Shown in pieces: positions 3,570-36,576 of a stretch of 64,000 bases of DNA. Source of the DNA: Sabellastarte sp. h YS-2021 (lineage: Eukaryota; Annelida; Polychaeta; Sabellida; Sabellidae); NCBI GenBank assembly GCA_964017235.1, contig OZ024929.1, positions 25,789,464 to 25,853,463 of the forward strand. The letters run 5' to 3'. The position numbers and the translations under genes are program-made. How positions within the stretch are numbered: position 1 is the stretch's first letter; every line of letters begins with the position of its first letter. The notes under the pieces are model-generated. The model was not told the DNA's origin. It searched no databases and saw only the letters and a list, made by a program, of their open reading frames with translations.

Positions 3570-4320
3570 TTTGTCTCTTCCGATAATAGACAAATTTCTT
3601 TGGTCAGTAGTTGTTTCGACTGTTTCGCCTGTGACACAGTATGCAGAAGACGAGTTAAAAAATAGACATAAAGCACAGAAATCTCGTGAGAATACCCGAA
3701 ATCTCGCGTGAATTACTGTTAGCTGGATGTATCAAATAAAATAAACTCACTTTCGTGTCTTTCTCACCTATTTCTATGAGGAAATATGTACATCGTCACA
3801 TCCGATAGTAGACAAATTTCTTTGGTCAGTAGTTGTTTCGACTGTTTCGCCTGTGACACAGTATGCAGAAGACGAGTTAAAAAATAGACATAAAGCACAG
3901 AAATCTCGTGAGAATACCCGAAATCTCGCGTGAATTACTGTTAGCTGGATGTATCAAATAAAATAAACTCACTTTCGTGTCTTTCTCACCTATTTCTATG
4001 AGGAAATATGTACATCGTCACATCCGATAGTAGACAAATTTCTTTGGTCAGTAGTTGTTTCGACTGTTTCGCCTGTGACACTATAAGCAGAAGACGAGTT
4101 TAAAAATCAACAAAAAGCACGGAAATCTCGCGAGAATACCCGAATTCTCACGTGAATTACTGTTAGCTGGATATATAAAATAAAATAAACTGCTTTTCAT
4201 GCTTTTCTCAAACATTTCTATGAGGAAATATGTACGTCGTCGCTTCCGAAAATAGATGAATTTCTTCCGTCAGTTTTGAGTGTTTCGCCTGGTAGCGACA
4301 GCACAGACTAAAGGTCAATA
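3570..4320. repeat. ~210-230-bp tandem repeat, 4 copies
   Basis: The phrase CAGTAGTTGTTTCGACTG recurs at about 3605, 3837 and 4049, with a diverged fourth near 4271. Copies two and three are almost identical, including AAATCTCGCGTGAATTACTG and GGAAATATGTACATCGTCAC. This indicates recent local duplication. Confidence 0.88.
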
Positions 4321-5790: not shown

Positions 5791-8588
5791 CCAAAAGTGG
5801 CGAAAATTGAAATGTTTCAAATTCACATAGAATACGCCTCTACTACCATATGGGTTAAAAATTCAGTTGAAATCGCTCTATCTCTTACGGTTTCCGAGAT
5901 ATTAACATTTTTGGGTTTTCCGCAAAAATCCAAGATGGCCGCCAAAAGTGGCGAAAAAATTGAAATTTCTCAATTTTGTATAGGATACTTTGCTATCACC
6001 CTACGGGTCAAAAATTCTGTTAAAATCACTCTTATCTCTTGCGGTTTCCGAGATATTAACATTTTCAGTTTTCCTCAAAAATCCAAGATGGCCACCAAAA
6101 GTGGCGAAATTGAAATTTTTCAATTTCACATAGAATACTCTCTCCATACCCTGTGGGTCAAAAATTCTGTCGAAATCGCTCTATCTCCCCCCCACAGTCT
6201 GGAATCATTTGCCTAATGAGGTACGTTCTCCCCCAACTCTCACCTGTTTCAGGAAAAGGTTAAAATCATATCTCTTCCACAAGGCATTCCCACCTTAGCA
6301 TACACTCTATCCGGCGTCTCCGTGGTACTGGACTTGGCAACGGCTATGGACAGATGATTTCTTAAACTTGATTTTTGGTGTTGCGCCTTAGAGTCTGCCT
6401 TGTAGAGATTAAGCGCTATAAAAGTACAGAATAGAATAGAATAGAATATCTCTTACGGTTTCCGAGATATTAACATTTTTTTGTTTTTCCGCAAAAATTC
6501 AAGATGGGCGCAAAAGTGGCGAAAATTGAAATTTTTCAATTGCACATAGAATACTCTACCACTACCATGCGAGTCAAAATTTCTGTGGAAATGGCTCTAT
6601 CTCTTACGGTTTCCGAGATATTAACATTTTTTGTTTTTCTGCAAAAATTCAAGATGGCCGCCAAAAGTGGCGAAAATTAAAATTTTTCAATTTTGTATAG
6701 AATACTTTCCTACTACCCTATGGGTAAAAAATTCTGTCCAAATCGCTCTATCTCTTACGGTTTCTGAGATATTAAGATTTTTTCGTTTTTCGCAAAAATC
6801 CAAGATGGCCGCCAAAAGTGGCGAAAATTAAAATTTTTCAATTTTGTACAGAATACTCTTCTACTACCCTGTGAGTCAAAAATTCTGTCCAAATCGCTCT
6901 ATCTCTTACGGTTTGTGAGATATTAAGATTTTTTCGTTTTTCGCAAAAATTGAAGATGGCCGCCAAAAGTGGCGAAAATTAAAATTTTTCAATTTTGTAC
7001 AGAATACTCTTCTGCTACCCTGTGAGTCAAAAATTCTGTCCAAATCGCTCTATCTCTTACGGTTTGTGAGATATTAAGATTTTTTCGTTTTTCGCAAAAA
7101 TTGAAGATGGCCGCCAAAAGTGGCGAAAATTGAAAATTTTCAATTTTGTACAGAATACTCTTCTACTACCCTGTGAGTCAAAAATTGTGTCGAAATCGCT
7201 CTATCTCTTACGGTTTGTGAGATATTAAGATTTTTTTGTTTTTTGCAAAAATTCAAGATGGCCGCCAAAAGTGGCTAAAATTGAAAATTTTCAATTTTGT
7301 ACAGAATACTCTTCTACTACCCTGTGAGTCAAAAATTGTGTCGAAATCGCTCTATCTCTTACGGTTTCTGAGATATTAAGATTTTTTCGTTTTTCGCAAA
7401 AATTCAAGATGGCCGCCAAAAGTGGCGAAAATTGAAATTTTTCAATTTTGTATAGAATACTCTGCTACTACCCTACAGGTCAAAAATTCTGTCGAAATCG
7501 CTTATCTCTTACGGTTTCTGAGATATTAATATTTTTTGTTTTTCGCAAAAATTCAAGATGGCCGCCAAAAGTGGCGAAAATTGAATTTTTTCAATTTCAC
7601 ATAGAATACTCTGCTACAACCCTACGGGTCAAAAATTCTGTCGAAATCGCTCTATCTCTTACGGTTTCCGAGATATTAACATTTTTTGTTTTTCCGCAAA
7701 AATTCAAGATAGCCGCCAAAAGTGGCGAAAATTGAAATTTTTCAATTTTGTATAGAATACTTTCCTACTACCCTATGGGTCAAAAATTCTGTCGAAATCG
7801 CTCTATCTCTTACGGTTTCTGAGATATTAATATTTTTTGTTTTTCGCAAAAATTCAAGATGGCTGCCAAAAGTGGCGAAAATTGAATTTTTTCAATTTCA
7901 CATAGAATACTCTGCTACAACCCTATGGGTAAAAAATTCTGTCGAAATCGCTCTGTCTCTTACGGTTTCAGAGATATTAACATTTTTTTGTTTTTCCGCA
8001 AAAATTCAAGATGGCCGCCAAAAGTGGCGAAAATTGAAATTTTTCAATTGCACATAGAATACTCTACCACTACCATGCGAGTCAAAATTTCTGTCAAAAT
8101 GGCTCTATCTCTTACGGTTTCCGAGATATTAACATTTTTTTGGTTTTTCCGCAAACATTCAAGATGGCCGCCAAAAGTGGCGAAAATTGAAATTTTTCAA
8201 TTTTGTATAGAATACTTTCCTACTACCCTACGGGTCAAAAGTTCTGTCCAAATCGCTCTATCTCTTACGGTTTCTGAGATATTAAGATTTTTTCGCTTTT
8301 CGCAAAAATTCAAGATGGCCGCCAAAAGTGGCAAAAATTGAAACTTTTCAATTTTGTATAGAATACTTTCCTACTACCCTACGGGTCAAAAATTCTGTCC
8401 AAATCGCTCTATCTCTTACGGTTTCTGAGATATTCAGATTTTTTCGTTTTTCGCAAAAATTCAAGATGGCCGCCAAAAGTGGCGAAAATTGAAATTTTTT
8501 AATTTTGTACAGAATACTTTTTTACTACCCTGTGAGTCAAAAATTCTGTCCAAATCGCTCTATCTCTTACGGTTTCTGAGATATTAGC
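5791..8588. repeat. ~151-bp satellite array, about 18 copies, interrupted once
   Basis: The block AAGATGGCCGCCAAAAGTGG recurs with a spacing of about 151 bp (for example around 6951, 7102 and 7253). Each unit has TTTTTCAATT, AGAATACT, GTCAAAAATTCTGT, AAATCGCTCTATCTCTTACG and a GAGATATTAA block. The open frames of 60-140 codons are artefacts: 151 is not a multiple of three, so the reading frame shifts with every unit. Variants (TTTTGTATAG, TTCACATAG, TTGCACATAG) are interspersed. A LINE end interrupts the array at 6188-6446. Confidence 0.93.
6188..6446 (+). mobile_element. 5'-truncated LINE 3' end inserted in satellite
   Basis: Plus-strand translation from about 6200 gives the conserved C-terminal block of this LINE type (W-N-x-L-P-x-x-V-R, F-R-K-x-L-K-x-Y-L-F) followed by a stop at about 6297. 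The tail has TTGCGCCTTAGAGTCTG, AGATTAAGCGCTATAAAAG and a terminal (AGAAT)n repeat. It is flanked by TATCTC at 6182-6187 and 6447-6452, a 6-bp target duplication; removing the insert restores the satellite word CTCTATCTCTTACGG. Confidence 0.9.
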
Positions 8589-12332: not shown

Positions 12333-13016
12333 CTGCACAGAATAGAAAGATATTGACGGGTGTCCGACATTATGCCAGGGTATGAAATAGTTTTCAGAAA
12401 TTCACATAAAATGATTAATTATGGCTAGGTTTGTTAAGTGGACTCAATTACTCGTTGATGAATGGACAAATAAATTATTCAGATTACAAAGTCAAGAAAA
12501 TAGTACTCTTGTCTTGTTTGATATGCCTATTTTATGCCAAAAAACTGAAAAAGTACTCTTTAAAGAATAGATTAATAACATTAATGATTAAACAAGATGT
12601 GAAAATAATGCCTATTCTGAATAATTAGTTCTTTTTATAAAGTAGACTAATACCAAAAAGAGCACTCGAGGCCTGAATATTCTGTCTACTCATTCAGTCT
12701 TGTCCCAATTATAAGGAGATAAAATTCTTTTCTCTTAATGTTCATAAAATAAAAGACTTTGAGAAAATATACAGTTTTAAAAATAAAGTTAAATGGCTTA
12801 AAAGTTAGAATTCCACATAATTCTCTATGATATATGATTATAAATTATAACAATATATATAAATTATAAAACATATATTTCACCTTTTTTCAAACACCCT
12901 GTTATCAAAAAGCTTTCATTGAATGTCAAACCAAGAGGATTTTTTAATGTAGCTATTGTTAACAAGGAGCAATTTAATACAAAAAGCTTATGTCTAAATA
13001 TGCACAAGCAATATAC
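12333..13016 (-). other. intron of the EF-Tu gene
   Basis: A 684-bp AT-rich phase-1 intron. No nested element was recognised. Confidence 0.8.
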
Positions 13017-14187
13017 CTGGCATTGCCATTGGAAGGTTATCTGGAAGATTTACACAGGCAGCAATGTTACAAGTTTCTGTAAACAACTGTTGGATGTAAT
13101 TAGTCTTGATTGGCTTGGATCTTCCTCCTTCATGCTTGTTTCTGACATATATCTGACATTTGAAATGATCGCACTGTATCACACCACCAGGAGCACTTAG
13201 AAACATGCCTCGCTCAATCAAGTCTTTCTTAACACCTCGCAACAGTACACCAACATTCTCACCATCTTGGGCTGACTCAACTGATTTATTAAACTGCTGA
13301 ATATCACCAACCCTGCTATTTATTGTTCTCCCAAATCCCATAGCATCCACTCTGTCCCCTCTTTTCATGGTTCCTCTCAGCAATGTACCAATAACAACTG
13401 TTCCTCTTCCCTGGATTGAGACACTGCCTTCCACAGGCACCAAAAAAGGGTCTTCTAAGTTTCTCTGAGGTATTGGGATATGATCATCAATCTTCTCAAT
13501 CAATTTTAAAATAGAATTTTTTCCTATATCATCATTCTCACCCTTCAAAGCACACAAAGCTGAACCAAAAACAATAGGTGTGTTTTCTGAATCCAACCCA
13601 AATTCATCCAGGAGGTCACAAACTTCCATTTCAACCAGTTCTAACATTTCTGAGTCAACTACATCAGCCTTATTGATGTAGACAACAAGATTGTTTACTC
13701 CAAGCTGTGTTGCTAACAATACATGTTCTCTTGTCTGTGGCATTGTTCCATCAGTTGCTGCAACAACTAATATGCTACCATCCATTTGGGATGTCCCACA
13801 AATCATATTTTTTATAAAGTCTCTGTGTCCGGGGCAATCAGTATGTGCATAGTGGCGTTTGTCTGAATTATATTCAACATGACAAGCATTTATTGTGATA
13901 CCCCTTGCTTTTTCCTCTGGAGCTCTATCAATACGATCATAATCAACAAATTCCGCACACCCCTTCTCAGCCAAAACCTTCGTTATGGCAGCAGTGAGTG
14001 TTGTTTTCCCGTGATCAATGTGGCCTATGGTACCAATGTTACAATGTGGTAAACCACTCCCAGTTTCTTTTGATAAATTTCTTGCTTTACGAACAACATG
14101 TCTAACATTTATAAGCTTTATGTTCGATAAATTCTTCAAAACATGAGTAAATGATGAGCGATAAAGTGCCACCCTGTAGAAAGACAT
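13017..14187 (-). CDS. mitochondrial-type elongation factor Tu, exon 1 (divergent paralogue)
   Basis: Together with exon 2 this encodes about 466 residues, against about 450 for mitochondrial EF-Tu. The protein would carry aminoacyl-tRNA to the mitochondrial ribosome using GTP. Residues 1-45 are basic and lack acidic residues until the end, as in a mitochondrial targeting peptide. G motifs are intact: GHIDHGKT (55-62), RGITI (95-99), DCPGH (117-121), NKAD (172-175) and SAL (209-211). Domain II spans about 250-335 and domain III follows, with HEGGRSKP at 352-359. Residue 122, after the catalytic histidine, is arginine where EF-Tu normally has alanine. Many other usually conserved positions differ. 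The first 390 codons lie in one exon, unlike the many-exon gene TUFM of vertebrates, so this could be a retro-derived second copy that later gained an intron. The frame has no break. The start ATG at 14187 is the first in frame ahead of the targeting region. Confidence 0.9.
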
Positions 14188-14395
14188 TTTCGTTGTCGGT
14201 GCATACTAAACATTTTACAATCCCGATAGTGACTGATACTATGATGATACATTTAGAAAACTCATTTCTTGCAAAAGAATAAATAAATAAGTTTCTGTTT
14301 GGCTTAGTGGATTAATTCTGAAATAGTGATTTCACTGTCTTCAAATATGCATTAAAATCTTGCAAGAACTGGCTCTTGGGAACACTTTAACAACT
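14188..14395. promoter_or_regulatory. presumed promoter region of the EF-Tu gene
   Basis: Only 208 bp separate the start codon from the transposon copy starting at 14398, so the element sits in the immediate 5' flank. No TATA box or other defined site was recognised. Confidence 0.3.
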
Positions 14396-14439
14396 ACCCC
14401 AGCAGGCACGCAACTTTGACATCTGGTTGAATCCAACGG

Positions 14440-14830
14440 TGAAATCTGGTTGAAATACGTGTAGATTTTGCAAACCGTTTTTAGTTGGATCCAACTGGTG
14501 AAATAATGTTGAAACCAACTGTTGAAATCTGGTCGAATTCAATGGGTGAAATCAGGTTGAAATACGTGTAGATTTTGCAAACCATTTTTGGTTGGATCCA
14601 ACCGGTGAAATCATGTTGAAACCAACTGTTGAAATCTGGTTGAATTCAATGTTTGAAATCAGGTTGAAATACGTGTAGATTTTGCAAACCGTTTTTGGTT
14701 GGATCCAACAAGTGAAATCATGTTGAAACCAACTGTTGAAATCTGGTTGTATTTATGTGTGAAATCTGGTTGAAATACATGTACATTTTGCAAACAGATT
14801 TTGGTTAGATCCAATGCATGAAATAGGGTT
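14440..14830. repeat. 107-bp tandem repeat inside the transposon (about 4 units)
   Basis: The word GAAATACGTGTAGATTTTGC recurs at 14452, 14559 and 14666, with a diverged unit from about 14772. Each unit has TTGGATCCAAC, GAAATCATGTTGAAACCAAC and GTTGAATTCAATG blocks. Confidence 0.9.
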
Positions 14831-15496
14831 GAATTCAATGAGCAAAATCAGGTTATTTACATTGTCTTCTTTATTTGAATCATTGTAGCTTGTGTGTCAT
14901 AATTATAGCTTCTTAATAATATTGTACAATAACTCTCCATATGCATATTTTACACTTTGGATACAACTTCAAAGTAATTAATTCTTTCCAAGATAACATG
15001 TATTCATGAATCATTGTATATTCAATATTCTATTTCTGTTGACATTGTAATGATACATAATTTTGCATCAAATATAATTATAATTGCTCAAGATATGTAA
15101 ATCCATATTATCCAACTAGATATCCATTTTTCATGTTTTTCATAGGACCAGTATTATTCAATGTCTTCAGTTAAAATTCTTTTTGTGAAATTTTAAAATA
15201 TTTTTTTTTCTTTCTAAATAACAAACAATTGTGACATTATTTATATCTTCAGTATTTTATCCAATCAGTTTCTTTTAAATTTTTTTATTAAGTTGGCTAT
15301 AATTATATTGTAATTATAAAGAAGCTATAATCATGTAGCAAAGCCACAATGCTCAGTTCAGATGCTTGTGTCTTGTACAACTTTGTGATATAAACTGAAA
15401 AAAAACCACAAGAATAGCCACATTTGCAGAACTTGATCTATTACTCCCCACCTTAATTAGTTGTCAGTGCTGACCACAAAAAACAGACTTAAAGAA

Positions 15497-28874: not shown

Positions 28875-30997
28875 TTCCCAGCAGGCACGCAACTTTGAAA
28901 TCAGGTTGAATCCAACGGTGAAATCTGGTTGAAATACGTGTAGATTTTGCAAACCGTTTTTAGTTGGATCCAACCGGTGAAATCATGTTGAAACCAACTG
29001 CTGAAATCTGGCTGAATTCAATGGGTGAAATCAGGTTGAAATACGTGTAGATTTTGCAAACCGTTTTTAGTTGGATCCAACCAGTGAAATCATGTTGAAA
29101 CCAACTGTTGAAATCTGGTTGAATTCAATGGGTCAAATCAGGTTGAAATACGTGTAGATTTTGCAAACCGTTTTTGGTTGGATCCAACCGGTGAAATCAT
29201 GTTGAAAACAACTGTTGAAATCTGGTTGAATTCAATGGGTGAAATCAGGTTGAAATACGTGTAGATTTTGCAAACCGTTTTTGGTTGGATCCAACAAGTG
29301 AAATCATGTTGAAACCAACTGTTGAAATCTGGTTGTATTTATGCGTGAAATCTGGTTGAAATACATGTACATTTTGCAAACAGGTTTTGGTTGGATCCAA
29401 TGTATGAAATAGGGTTGAATTCAATGGGTAAAATCAGGTTATTTACATTGTCTTCTTTATTTGAATCATTGTAGCTTGTGTGTCATAATTATAGCTTCTT
29501 AATAATATTATACAATAACTATCCATATGCATATTTTACACTTTGGATACAACTCAAAGTAATTAATTCTTTCCAAGATGACATGTATTCATGAATCATT
29601 GTATATTCAATATTCTATTTCTGATGACATTGTAATGATACATAATTTTGCATCAAATATAATTATAATTGATCAAGAAATGTAAATCCATATTATCCAA
29701 CTAGATATCCATTTTTAAGTTTTAATAGGACCAGTATTATTCAATGTCTTCAATTAAAATTCTTTTTGTGAAATTTTAAAATATTTTTTTTCTTTGTAAA
29801 AAACAAACAATTGTGACATTATTTATATCTGCAGCATATTATCCAATCAGTTTCTGTTAAATGTTTTATTAAGTTGGCTATAATTATATTGTAATTATAA
29901 AGAAGCTATAATCATGTAGCAAAGCCATAATGCTCAGTTCAGATGCTTGTGTCTCATACAACTTTGGCATATAAACTGAGAAAAAAAACACAAGAATAGC
30001 CACATTATTAGAACTCCACCCATTACTCCCCACCTTAATTAGTTGTCAGTGCTGACCACAAAAAACAGACTTAAAGAAGTAACACCATGCATGCAATTGG
30101 GCAAGGGTAAAGCCCCACCTCCATCCCTGCTGTGTTATCTAATTACTTTAGTCACAGGTCCAGTGTTCTGTGTAGCAGGGTACAGATAAGAAAAACCAGG
30201 AACCCCCCAACCTCACTGTTGTGTGATAAAATGTTATAGCTTAGGTTCTCTGTATAGAGAAGTTTTCAGTGTAAACTTGCAAACTGAAAACTAGTTTTTT
30301 GTGTATGGGAGAATTTTGAGAAACAAATTCGATTTACTAAGTTTTGATGAATAAGTTTGAATTTATCTTTTTTTTATTCAAGATAAGTTTGACTTCAAAA
30401 TGTTTTTTTTTAATTATCAGGAATTGTATTAATCAAAATATAATTATAAATTATAAAAATTATATTTGGATGCATCAGTTAATGAATAAGGAGAATGGAT
30501 AAAAATGTACAAGTACATGTACACATAATCTTTATCATCTTTATAATCTTTAAAAAATAGTCTTTGCTTTACAGATATTTACAAATTCAAAAAGAATTAC
30601 AATAATAGTTCTTTCAAAAAGTTAGACTTAATCACTATATCATCCTCTAGAAAATGAATTTTTAATCAACCAGTCATTCATTTCCCAATATTCAACCTGT
30701 TTTCTGTTCAATAACATGACTAAGATTTCATGTCGAAAAACCTAACTTGATTTAGTGGTGATTTTTTATGAAGTATCACTACTTTTTCCAGTCAGAAATC
30801 CAGCTTTGAAATAGTGTTGAAATTGTGTCAGTGTCAGTTTTTCAACCAAAAATCACCATGATTTCTGGTCAAAATATCACTACTTTTTCATGTCAGAAAA
30901 CTAACTTAGATTTAGTAGTTGGTAATGTGCATTTCAACGTCAGGACCTGTTTTCAACTCTAAATCAACGACATTTCAAGGCATGTGCCTGCTGGGTT
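28875..30997. mobile_element. non-autonomous DNA transposon 'CCCAGCAGGCAC', copy B
   Basis: Starts CCCAGCAGGCACGC at 28877 and ends GTGCCTGCTGGG at 30995. TT flanks both ends (28875-28876, 30996-30997). It is collinear with copy A but lacks the LINE and has one more 107-bp unit. It has no coding capacity. Confidence 0.9.
28915..29440. repeat. 107-bp tandem repeat inside copy B (about 5 units)
   Basis: GAAATACGTGTAGATTTTGC recurs at exact 107-bp steps: 28931, 29038, 29145 and 29252. A diverged unit begins near 29358. Confidence 0.92.
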
Positions 30998-33918: not shown

Positions 33919-33933
33919 AGGTATCAGATAATC
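33919..33933 (+). repeat. left 15-bp target site duplication of the Penelope-like element
   Basis: AGGTATCAGATAATC, identical to 36562-36576. Confidence 0.88.
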
Positions 33934-33982
33934 TAACAACAAGGGTTTGTTGAAGTGCAAATTCTCACTCAAGTAAAAAGTT

Positions 33983-33998
33983 CACAATAGATATTGTG
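33983..33998. other. perfect 16-bp palindrome repeating the ribozyme helix III arms
   Basis: CACAATAGATATTGTG uses the same CACAATA/TATTGTG arms as helix III of the adjacent ribozyme, so alternative pairing is possible. Confidence 0.7.
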
Positions 33999-34003
33999 GA
34001 TGT

Positions 34004-34077
34004 GCCTTACACAATATCTGCACTTATGTGTATTGTGTTTCGAAAGTTATTGTAGGTAAAACTTTCTCATCAGAGGC
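34004..34077 (-). ncRNA. type I hammerhead ribozyme
   Basis: Minus strand, in order: GCCT (helix I, 34077-34074), CTGATGA core (34073-34067), helix II GAAAGTT / AACTTTC (7 bp, 34066-34060 with 34048-34042) closed by an 11-nt loop, and GAAA core (34041-34038). Helix III is ACACAATA / TATTGTGT (8 bp, 34038-34031 with 34016-34009, including the A15.1-U16.1 pair). Position H17 is A (34008), giving a GUA cleavage triplet, and AGGC (34007-34004) closes helix I. Every conserved core position is present. Hammerheads are known from Penelope-like elements and small retrozymes of animals. Here it is antisense to the reverse transcriptase. Confidence 0.88.
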
Positions 34078-34373
34078 TGAAACAAAATGATGGACAACAA
34101 CTCCAGAATTTTGTCAAACAGCTCAAAAAGATGCTCAACCAATAGACTTGCACCCACACTTGTAACTGTATAATGCACTGTTACTGTTTGAGATATATTG
34201 CAGTACAATCTTATTAACCTCATATCCTACTGGTATCTTATCTACATATGTTTTAACATAACTATTTTAGGTCTGTCAATAAAAGGTAATTTAATAAACA
34301 GGTGCAATTACACTCTCGTTTTCCTACCTTAGGGGTAACACCTTCACTTAAATCTGAACTCTGATTTCGCACC

Positions 34374-36500
34374 ATGGCTCATTCAAAGGCACAAATTGAA
34401 CTTGCAGCCATGAATGCCACACCAGGCATTCTACCACCTAACACTGAATTTGAAAGTCATATAGGTCATAATGTCATTAACATCTCTAATACTGAACTCA
34501 ATGAACACCAGCTCAGAGCGCTGGAAAAGGGTCTGACTTTCTGCCCCACACCAAAAGGACCAGACAAGTCGGAAATCTGGAATGACTTTAAAGAATTCCA
34601 CAGAAGATTAGAACTAGCACAATTTTTTCTACCAACTAATGAAAAAATTGACCTAGAAATATCTCAAAGTATAATTGATTTCATGAACCAAAACACTGAC
34701 ACAGGTTTAGATGACACTAACATCACTGCCGCATACAATGAAATACATAAATCATTCAAAAACAAATCAAGTTGGAGACCTAATCCAAACAAAACCCTTG
34801 CCACCTTCAAGAGAGCCTTTAAAATGAACTTACTAGAGAGTAAGATCAAGAAAAGCACCAACCAGAATCTAACCAAGGAAGAAAGGGTTGGACTTAGGGA
34901 GCTACAAGGCAACCCACACATAGTAATCAAAAAGGCAGACAAGGGTTCTGCAGTGGTAATTATGAATACCACAGACTATCTGAGGGAGGGTTACAGGTAA
35001 TTAAGCGACAAGAACTTCTACACTAAACTAACCCAAGACCCCACACTGGACATTTCAAAAAAGATATGTAAAGTGCTTACTGAAATGAAAAACTTAAAGT
35101 TAATCTCAGATAAAAACTTTGATTTTCTCAACATCAAGAATCCAAAAGCTGGTAGATTTTACTTACTACCTAAAATACATAAAAAGGGAGTACCAGGGAG
35201 ACCAATATGCAGTTCCATTGGCCACCCAACATGTAACATCAGCAAGTTCATAGATGCACATATCAAAGACTATGTTTCCAAAACATCATCATATGTTCGA
35301 GACACTCAGCACTTTATTAGCAGACTCAAATCACTAAATAAACTTCCAGAAGGGGCGCTATTATTAGTAACCTTGGATGTCTCATCCCTATACACAAACA
35401 TTCCAAATAGGGAGGACATTCTGGCAGTAGCAGCACACCTGAGGCAAGATAGGACCAAAGATCCTATCACCCCATTCTTACTGAAACTACTGGAATTAGT
35501 ACTACATAGCATGAACTTCAAATTTAATGAAGATCATTACTTGCAAGTAGGAGGTACAGCCATGGGTACTGCAGTGGCACCAAATTATGCCAACTTATTT
35601 ATGGACAGATTTGAGACAAGGGCACTCAGTAATTGGCCTAACAAGCCGTTACTATGGCTCAGATTTATTGATGACATCTTCATGATCTGGACACATGGCC
35701 GAGATGAATTAGAGAGATTCATTAAGTATCTGAATAACATACCCCCCAAGATCAAATTAACTTCAGACATCAGTGATACCCACGTCAACTTTCTGGACAC
35801 AACTGTAAGAATTGACTCAGATAGACTCATTTACACCACTCTGTATGAAAAACTACCAAATATAATCCACGTAACCCAGACATTAAGGGGTTCATCCATG
35901 ACAGTTGGAATATAATCCAACATAGCAATGACTGTGCTAACACATTCCCAGATAAACCCATCATTGGCTTTAAGAGATTACCAAATCTTAGAGACTTGCT
36001 TACCAATGCTACCATATCTTACCCACCAAATAATATGGAGCCGAAAAAACCAATACCCACTCACTGCACGAGACTGGGTAAATGTAAATATTGCCCTATA
36101 ATTTCAAGAAACAATGAAATTACCTGTAAAATCAGTGGGGATAAATACCAGCCCAAAAATCTCCCAAACTCAATATCATGTGAATTGAGTGATATTGTAT
36201 ATTTAATCACATGTAAAAAAATGTGATAAATACTATGTTGGTGAAACAGGAAGGGCGTTCAGAGCACGAATCTATGAACACAAATTCTCAGTGAATAAAC
36301 CAAAGGATAGCAGAGTAACCCCTGTTTCCAAACATTTTACTGGAAAAGGTCACTCAGCTAAGGATATGCAGTTTTCTATACTTGAATCGTGCACTCCCAA
36401 ATACAACACTCCATCTACAGCCCACAGAAGGAGGTGTGAGCAGTGGTGGATGTGGAATATTGTAGCAATCCACCCAATAGGCATAAATCAATTTATTTGA
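34374..36500 (+). pseudogene. Penelope-like reverse transcriptase / GIY-YIG endonuclease, broken
   Basis: N-terminal region 34374-35000 contains L-T-F-C-P-T-P-K and H-I-V-I-K-K-A-D-K-G-S-A. RT motifs follow at 35073-35915: LDVSSLYTNIP (motif A), GTAMGTAVAPNYANLFM (motif B) and RFIDDIF (motif C). A C-terminal GIY-YIG domain has IVYLITCKK and then YYVGETGRAFRARIYEH. Breaks: an in-frame TAA at 34998; an internal deletion plus frame change near 35855, where the linker between the RT palm/thumb and the 'YNPRNPDIKG' block is much shorter than in known PLEs; and an extra A in an A7 run at about 36214, just before the YYVG strand. The first and second parts are in the same frame. It is a transposon gene, not a host gene. 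Confidence 0.9.
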
Positions 36501-36561
36501 AATTTGTGCATATTTCGGTCTTTTAATCATTTCACACTCATGGAAGACCACCTCCCCTTTG

Positions 36562-36576
36562 AGGTATCAGATAATC
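36562..36576 (+). repeat. right 15-bp target site duplication of the Penelope-like element
   Basis: AGGTATCAGATAATC, identical to 33919-33933. Confidence 0.88.

Follow-up and report, generated by a model that had tools for sequence, protein, structure and literature searches.

A type I hammerhead ribozyme with a paired helix III in Penelope-like elements of Sabellastarte sp., and insertion ends at its predicted cleavage site

A complete type I hammerhead ribozyme (HHR) with an intact core was found on the minus strand, at positions 34077-34004, of the analysed window, a stretch of 64,000 nt from Sabellastarte sp. h YS-2021 (assembly GCA_964017235.1, contig OZ024929.1, positions 25,789,464-25,853,463, forward strand). 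On the minus strand it is spelled GCCT-CTGATGA-GAAAGTT..AACTTTC-GAA-ACACAATA..TATTGTGT-A^AGGC, with the predicted scissile bond at ^, and contains the conserved core of the type, namely CUGAUGA...GAA, the pair A15.1-U16.1 and an NUH triplet, together with three helices of which helix I is open-ended. The core, the GUA triplet, the lengths of helices I (4 bp), II (7 bp) and III (8 bp) and the cut after position 34008, proposed in a sequence-only reading of this DNA, were reread from the sequence and all proved correct. The minimum-free-energy fold predicted for the minus strand is the whole hammerhead layout, and folding of the isolated 78-nt motif gave z = -3.0. A descriptor with the exact core and at least 4, 5 and 5 pairs in helices I, II and III, applied to both strands, matched this site alone in the window and nothing in 150 first-order Markov resampled 64-kb windows. 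The hammerhead first observed at this site is confirmed. The features of the locus are collected in the table.

Table. Features of the hammerhead, of the insertion that contains it and of related copies (window positions unless a copy is named)
Feature	Position	Strand	Basis or remark
Left target-site duplication AGGTATCAGATAATC	33919..33933	.	identical 15 bp at 36562-36576
Right target-site duplication	36562..36576	.	15-bp match to the left copy
Inverted tail segment: HHR and 74 nt from cleavage site to S1	33934..34079	-	sharp outer end TAACAACAAGGG common to other copies; target-site duplication
3' cleavage product as far as S1, 74 nt	33934..34007	-	contains segment CACAATATC
Type I hammerhead ribozyme	34004..34077	-	motif reading, fold, descriptor, conservation and covariation
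Helix I		-	GCCT/AGGC, 4 bp
Core CTGATGA	34073-34067	-	
Helix II, 7 bp	34066-34060/34048-34042	-	
Core GAA	34041-34039	-	
Helix III, 8 bp	34038-34031/34016-34009	-	
Cleavage triplet GUA	34010-34008	-	
H17 = A	34008	-	
Predicted scissile bond GUA^AGGC	34007..34008	-	motif; 7/57 related partial 5' ends exactly there
5'-truncated Penelope-like element body, 3' end at S2 (..CCACCTCCCCTTTG)	34080..36561	+	copy comparison, target-site duplication
Upstream basic ORF1, last 21 codons	34080..34145	+	resembles family B and C ORF1 C termini (by eye)
RT-EN ORF, N-terminal and reverse transcriptase part, in-frame stop within	34365..35915	+	RVT_1 3.1e-09
GIY-YIG endonuclease fragment, another frame	36207..36500	+	E = 0.0017, 19 bits, under the 22.6-bit cutoff
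ORF1 and finger ORFs, copy L131	959-2077, 2813-3745	+	
ORF1 and finger ORFs, copy L132	318-1112, 2209-3228	-	
Finger ORF, copy L056	1733-2737	+	

The covariance check with the Rfam hammerhead model, suggested along with the sequence-only reading, failed: no family reached its gathering score in the scan of the window, and RF00163 was absent among the window matches at E <= 10. A genome-wide search with RF00163 gave no match either, but control genomes equally gave none, hence this is not evidence of absence; the Rfam hammerhead model probably does not cover the loop-less form seen here. Support for the motif despite the failure of the covariance model comes from the comparison with related copies. 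The best weak Rfam matches at the site were to C/D box snoRNA (15.9 vs. 42 bits, E 8.9; 15.2 vs. 38 bits, E 3.8), and this identity was rejected, both scores being under gathering. All the snoRNA, microRNA, sRNA and transposase RNA matches are below gathering, those with the lowest E-values lying on a palindromic junction in copy L056. In two subfamilies, inspection by eye suggested an extended helix I (AUAUC/GAUAU), through which loops 1 and 2 might make a tertiary contact, but just 48% of cells of this possible helix Ib are paired over 44 family A copies.

The same 15-bp target-site duplication (TSD) at both edges delimits a single insertion, 33934-36561. It contains the body of a Penelope-like element (PLE), truncated inside ORF1 (an assignment made by eye), on the plus strand and the HHR on the minus strand; accordingly, the HHR is antisense to the body and represents the inverted tail of one shared insertion. 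The reading frame of the element has an in-frame stop before the reverse transcriptase (RT) piece and more frame changes after it. The combination of RT and GIY-YIG endonuclease that marks PLEs was found, though the GIY-YIG fragment of the window is itself sub-cutoff; in a related copy this domain scores above the cutoff. Tandem copies, inverted terminal pieces, tails and TSDs, likewise marks of PLEs, were also found. In the 1.79-Gb genome, 130 relatives were scored by RT search among 3952 first-look candidates.

Of the earlier description of an HHR in the 5' region of a PLE, the assignment to a type I HHR of a PLE (RVT_1, GIY-YIG) thus stands, and the position has to be revised, since the segment is an inverted tail and not a functional 5' region. 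An unmutated core in a broken element is unremarkable when taken alone: over the 146-bp unit, identity to the window reaches 97-98% in the best other copies, so that less than one change is expected in the 13 core positions. On the evidence of aligned copies, selection is visible in the comparison of families and not in the window copy.

Besides the RT/GIY-YIG gene, the tandem units of two related families, B and C, contain a basic ORF1 of 264-310 aa and, between the GIY-YIG gene and the ribozyme, an ORF of 339-372 aa with C2H2-like fingers (recognised by eye). The ORF1 frame of family C opens at an AUG inside the hammerhead core. A finger ORF is also present in a young unit of the window's family, A (zf-C2H2, 4.1e-08 in L056). 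For canonical PLEs, only one ORF is described (PMC11167929). Near-identical tandem arrays with a spacing of about 3.29 kb were found at G000 C3:173474675-173495079, C3:181873151-181883070 and C5:14410715-14422356. The array unit L056 has no RT-sized ORF and keeps the ORF1 start, GIY-YIG, the finger ORF and the ribozyme; arrays of this type are apparently a young non-autonomous derivative.

The copies share two recurrent ends. S1 (..CCCTTGTTGTTA) is the outer end of the ribozyme part and is common to many copies; downstream of it lies unrelated flank or, in tandem copies, the 5' region of the element. In tandem copies the HHR is in sense, 65-77 nt upstream of this fixed end, the distance from cut to S1 being 74 nt in family A, about 77 nt in B and about 65 nt in C, and the order of the module is ribozyme, 65-77 nt, S1 and protein genes, with S2 after the RT-endonuclease gene. 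S1 is probably the start of reverse transcription. S2, the outer end of the element part, is matched to the identical base in L018, L022 and L031; these go on with CTT or CTTT before diverging, so the position of S2 is uncertain by a few nucleotides. Short composites, e.g., L060 and L078, both flanked by a 15-bp TSD, begin with the S2 end in reverse complement. The two ends fit starts of reverse transcription at two sites of the element RNA, one per DNA end. The leader of the short composites had been considered as a spliced leader or SINE head, and is actually the S2 end of the PLE itself in reverse complement. The sharp 146-bp unit was likewise rejected as an independent retrozyme: its upstream limit is merely the junction of the window copy, and among the matches listed 73 of the 123 distinct family A tail copies parsed have homology that reaches 138 nt or more upstream from the ribozyme.

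These 73 copies, less L053 and L096, which failed the motif match, yielded 44 distinct HHR sequences. Departures from the majority make up 12/572 (2.1%) in the core, a value biased toward conservation because rows were chosen by approximate match to the motif ends (2/73 dropped), and 57/1584 (3.6%) in the stems, as compared with 167/487 (34%) in loop II and 135/662 (20%) in loop III. Cells of helices I-III are still paired in 97-98% of cases. Within the 44 sequences of family A, no double compensatory changes were found in helices I-III, only wobble changes, and the RNAalifold consensus predicts helix II and not helices I and III. Three of four family A copies folded in longer context favour other folds.

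Family B was first read in an array with RTs 78-79% identical to that of the window, and family C in an array with an RT 70% identical to it. Helix II is represented there by GATAG/CTATC (B, L163) and GACTG/CAGTC (C, L131), and helix III, re-spelled in both families, is still paired across 11 positions of which one is a mismatch. Both families retain helix I and UA^AGGC and, nearly always, CTGATGA, the heptamer being present in 41/42 (C) and 17/21 (B) of the copies that reach the 5' end of the ribozyme. The hammerhead fold was predicted for one copy each of B and C.

Covariation was counted in 18 sequences of families A, B and C against 500 shuffles and slid controls. Cells changed on both sides number 36, compared with a shuffle mean of 14.6 (none of 500 shuffles reached 36) and a maximum of 11 in slid controls; for the covariation score, the value of 0.287 compares with 0.131 in shuffles (0/500). 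No excess was found for pairs with a double change (6 vs. 4.8; 132/500 as high) or for pair types (11 vs. 12.6), so two of the five measures are not above shuffles. The covariation of helices II and III arises between families; helix I hardly varies and shows none. As judged from these alignments, helices II and III are conserved by pairing in three PLE families despite their divergence.

The 5' limit of sense homology upstream of S1 was set by local alignment for each copy. Partial 5' ends were found in 50/123 copies of family A (among the matches listed, one listed place left out), 10/28 of B (all 29 listed places covered) and 11/48 of C (55 of 69 places covered). After removal of L048 (a near-duplicate of L047), L189 (a duplicate of L170) and ends lying beyond the range from -90 to +35 relative to the cut (10 A, 2 C), and with the two arms of a palindromic insertion counted as two ends, 57 ends were available. 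Exactly at the scissile bond lie 7/57 ends, versus 0.45 expected for a uniform 126-nt window (binomial p = 3.7e-7), a crude null because ends also accumulate at the 5' border of the ribozyme. They come from L003, L040 and L042 (A), L166 and L182 (B), and the plus-strand arm of L140 and L148 (C), with per-family binomial p of 0.0037, 0.0022 and 0.0022, respectively. The maximum at any other position is 3 ends in the cut coordinate and 4 when counted from the ribozyme start.

Within 1 nt of the cut lie 10/57 ends, including L080 at -1 and L167 and the other arm of L140 at +1. The cleanest case is L040, a solo insertion of the 3' cleavage product from AGGC with a 14-bp TSD; L080 is similar, with an 11-bp TSD and an ambiguity of 1 nt each way. 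Two head-to-head arms with ends at 0 and +1 form L140. TSDs were searched by script in family A, and none were found in many partial copies. Microhomology leaves L042 ambiguous between 0 and +3, L080 between -1 and +1, and L167 between +1 and +4; without L042, 6/56 ends remain at position 0 (p = 6e-6). L156 was placed at -11 by alignment and by eye could lie at -3 to 0. Ends that do not fit the cut include L043 and L044 at +3 and L134 at +4; others are scattered. A second cluster of 10/57 ends, all of family A, lies at -74 to -71, a stretch with no predicted cut; 13/57 ends are within -3 to +2 of the ribozyme start, and L150 (C, -68, both arms) and L184 (B, -63) also belong there. Ends at this 5' border may be due to structure, 5' trimming or microhomology in joining. 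The excess of insertion starts at the predicted cut suggests cutting in living cells, and the simplest reading of these ends would be run-off of reverse transcription on ribozyme-cleaved RNA.

The ends at position 0 could also be produced by a real ribozyme left uncut, if RT paused on RNA in which helix I is melted and stalled at the base of helix III. Since helix III starts at -2, such a stall would end at -1 or 0; one end does lie at -1, with two at +1, and the other border of the ribozyme also gathers ends (the cluster at -74 to -71). Stalls are, however, expected at -1, spread, and at helix II, while 7 ends were observed at exactly 0 versus 1 at -1, and the same peak is found in three families, the helix III of which varies in both sequence and length; we regard pausing as unlikely. 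A passive relic, that is, a PLE hammerhead inherited in inactive form with footprints arising by chance, would agree with the properties of PAc, a Poseidon PLE of Anolis carolinensis, insertion of which did not need HHR cleavage in vitro and the ribozyme of which cut only with protein (PMC11167929). The lack of an Rfam match for the HHR also fits a relic, but the covariation over three families together with a near-invariant core, and the excess of insertion ends at the cut site, make it very improbable. Least credible of all is a transcription start at position 0, with the RNA 5' end made by RNA polymerase and not by the ribozyme: TATA(TA) immediately precedes AGGC in families B and C, but a TATA box abutting the start site is an unusual spacing, family A has GTGTA before AGGC, and it would take a coincidence for the start to fall on the scissile bond itself in all three families.

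We consider it likely that the HHR belongs to a PLE module of cleavage and RT start, in which priming at S1 leads to run-off on cut RNA and to read-through on uncut RNA, and that the window copy was joined from S1 and S2 cDNAs. The sequences themselves show the motif with its conserved and covarying helices, the TSD and limits of the insertion, the recurrent S1 and S2 and the surplus of ends at the cut; that the RNA is cleaved in vivo, that reverse transcription runs off and that it is primed at both DNA ends are the steps that we infer. The element RNA would cut its own strand after GUA (A) or AUA (B, C). Reverse transcription from S1 on RNA already cut would run off at AGGC and give short inserts, that on uncut RNA would continue across the ribozyme into the remaining element, and both kinds of cDNA would be inserted into the genome. 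The window copy would derive from uncut RNA, its S1-primed end copied over 146 nt across the whole ribozyme and its other end, primed at S2, over about 2.5 kb of the element; joining of the two products would leave the ribozyme antisense to the element. This geometry would account for the antisense ribozyme at the front of a broken element and offers a testable role for the HHR, namely to decide whether a copy is a dead end or of full length. Provided that the cut is recorded by insertion ends, cleavage in vivo can be counted from assemblies alone, species by species.

In family A, the segment CACAATATC, located 10-18 nt beyond the cut, has two possible pairing partners, the 3' strand of helix III and the TATTGTG that directly follows this strand. 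In seven copies and the window folded at growing length, the predicted probability of helix III is 0.86-0.98 before the segment is included, with the exception of L052 (0.00 throughout). With the segment included, it drops to 0.00-0.04 (four copies of young or intermediate age) or to 0.43-0.49 (two older copies and the window); when the folded length allows the tail hairpin, it returns to 0.16-0.91. Pairing in the competing hairpin amounts to 97.5%, yet its changes are only wobble and show no excess over shuffles, so the computed folding gives just a hint that the downstream segment may act as a ribozyme switch.

A bolder proposal, which we advance tentatively and think rather doubtful, is that the PLE HHRs of this lineage cut in vivo as a gate of retrotransposition. 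Since S1 lies downstream of the cut, linear RNA that has cut itself could not serve for full-length copying and would yield only a dead-end insert of 65-77 nt; a full copy would need uncut RNA (multimeric, delayed or re-ligated), the conserved pairing segment of family A would be an off-switch releasable by protein at S1, and the genome would record each outcome.

Hammerheads in PLEs have been known since 2014 (Cervera and De la Pena 2014; Lunse et al. 2017, via PMC6155905, PMC7761336). They are described as minimal, usually without helix III and possibly cut as dimers (PMC6155905, PMC7761336), and their activity in vivo and role were called "still a mystery" in a 2020 review (PMC7761336). The HHRs found here share with these accounts of the minimal form the type I topology, the location in a repeated non-coding PLE region, the core and the absence of evident loop-loop contact (PMC6155905, PMC7761336). 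They differ in helix III, usually lacking in the minimal form and represented here by 8 bp (A) or by 11 positions with one mismatch (B, C), so that they would be expected to work as monomers. In terms of the alignments, the long covarying helix III sets them apart as a variant of known PLE hammerheads. A literature search by titles and starts of abstracts, with the primary PLE-hammerhead and Terminon papers outside its scope and thus no proof of absence in print, found no PLE hammerhead with helix III and none with insertion ends at the cleavage site.

The closest likeness in architecture is to PAc, the HHR of which, described with stems I and II, is likewise located just upstream of an internal RT start, at about 85-92 nt (subtracted published positions) versus 65-77 nt here (PMC11167929). 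According to the same account, tail ends of PAc correspond to RT starts, both DNA strands are cut and extended, and a reading frame opens at the HHR, as in family C; no RNA-seq reads are reported there to begin or end at the HHR site, whereas insertions start at the cut here (PMC11167929). Inverted terminal pieces have long been known in Penelope, and the inverted pLTR/tail structure of Penelope in Adineta vaga includes an inverted 5' terminal piece, an optional tail and TSDs of 8-10 bp (PMC3846280). The Adineta vaga account does not use the words hammerhead or ribozyme and ascribes the inverted repeats to self-priming (PMC3846280); unlike that account, the inverted piece here begins at the recurrent S1. 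Metazoan non-LTR retrozymes also have a type I HHR in tandem genomic repeats and are candidates for mobilisation by PLEs, but these are small (roughly 150-400 bp), non-autonomous and described with loop-loop contacts (PMC7229834), while the HHRs here are in RT-encoding multi-ORF PLEs.

Copies L047 and L048 (C11:91677047 and C3:182139875) share an inverted-repeat arrangement and near-identical flanks, probably representing a secondary duplication that carries the PLE tail. Elsewhere in the window, an uninterrupted open frame of 403 aa (12994-14205, minus strand) matches mitochondrial EF-Tu (7a5g_Z, 1.2e-129) and ends early in domain 3; it is probably a retrocopy. An almost identical 107-bp unit (GTTGAAATCTGG-like) makes up two arrays about 14 kb apart, at 14411-14833 and 28890-29400, and satellite-like arrays were found at 745-1757 (147 bp), 3579-4274 (222 bp) and 6447-8586 (period of 151 bp).
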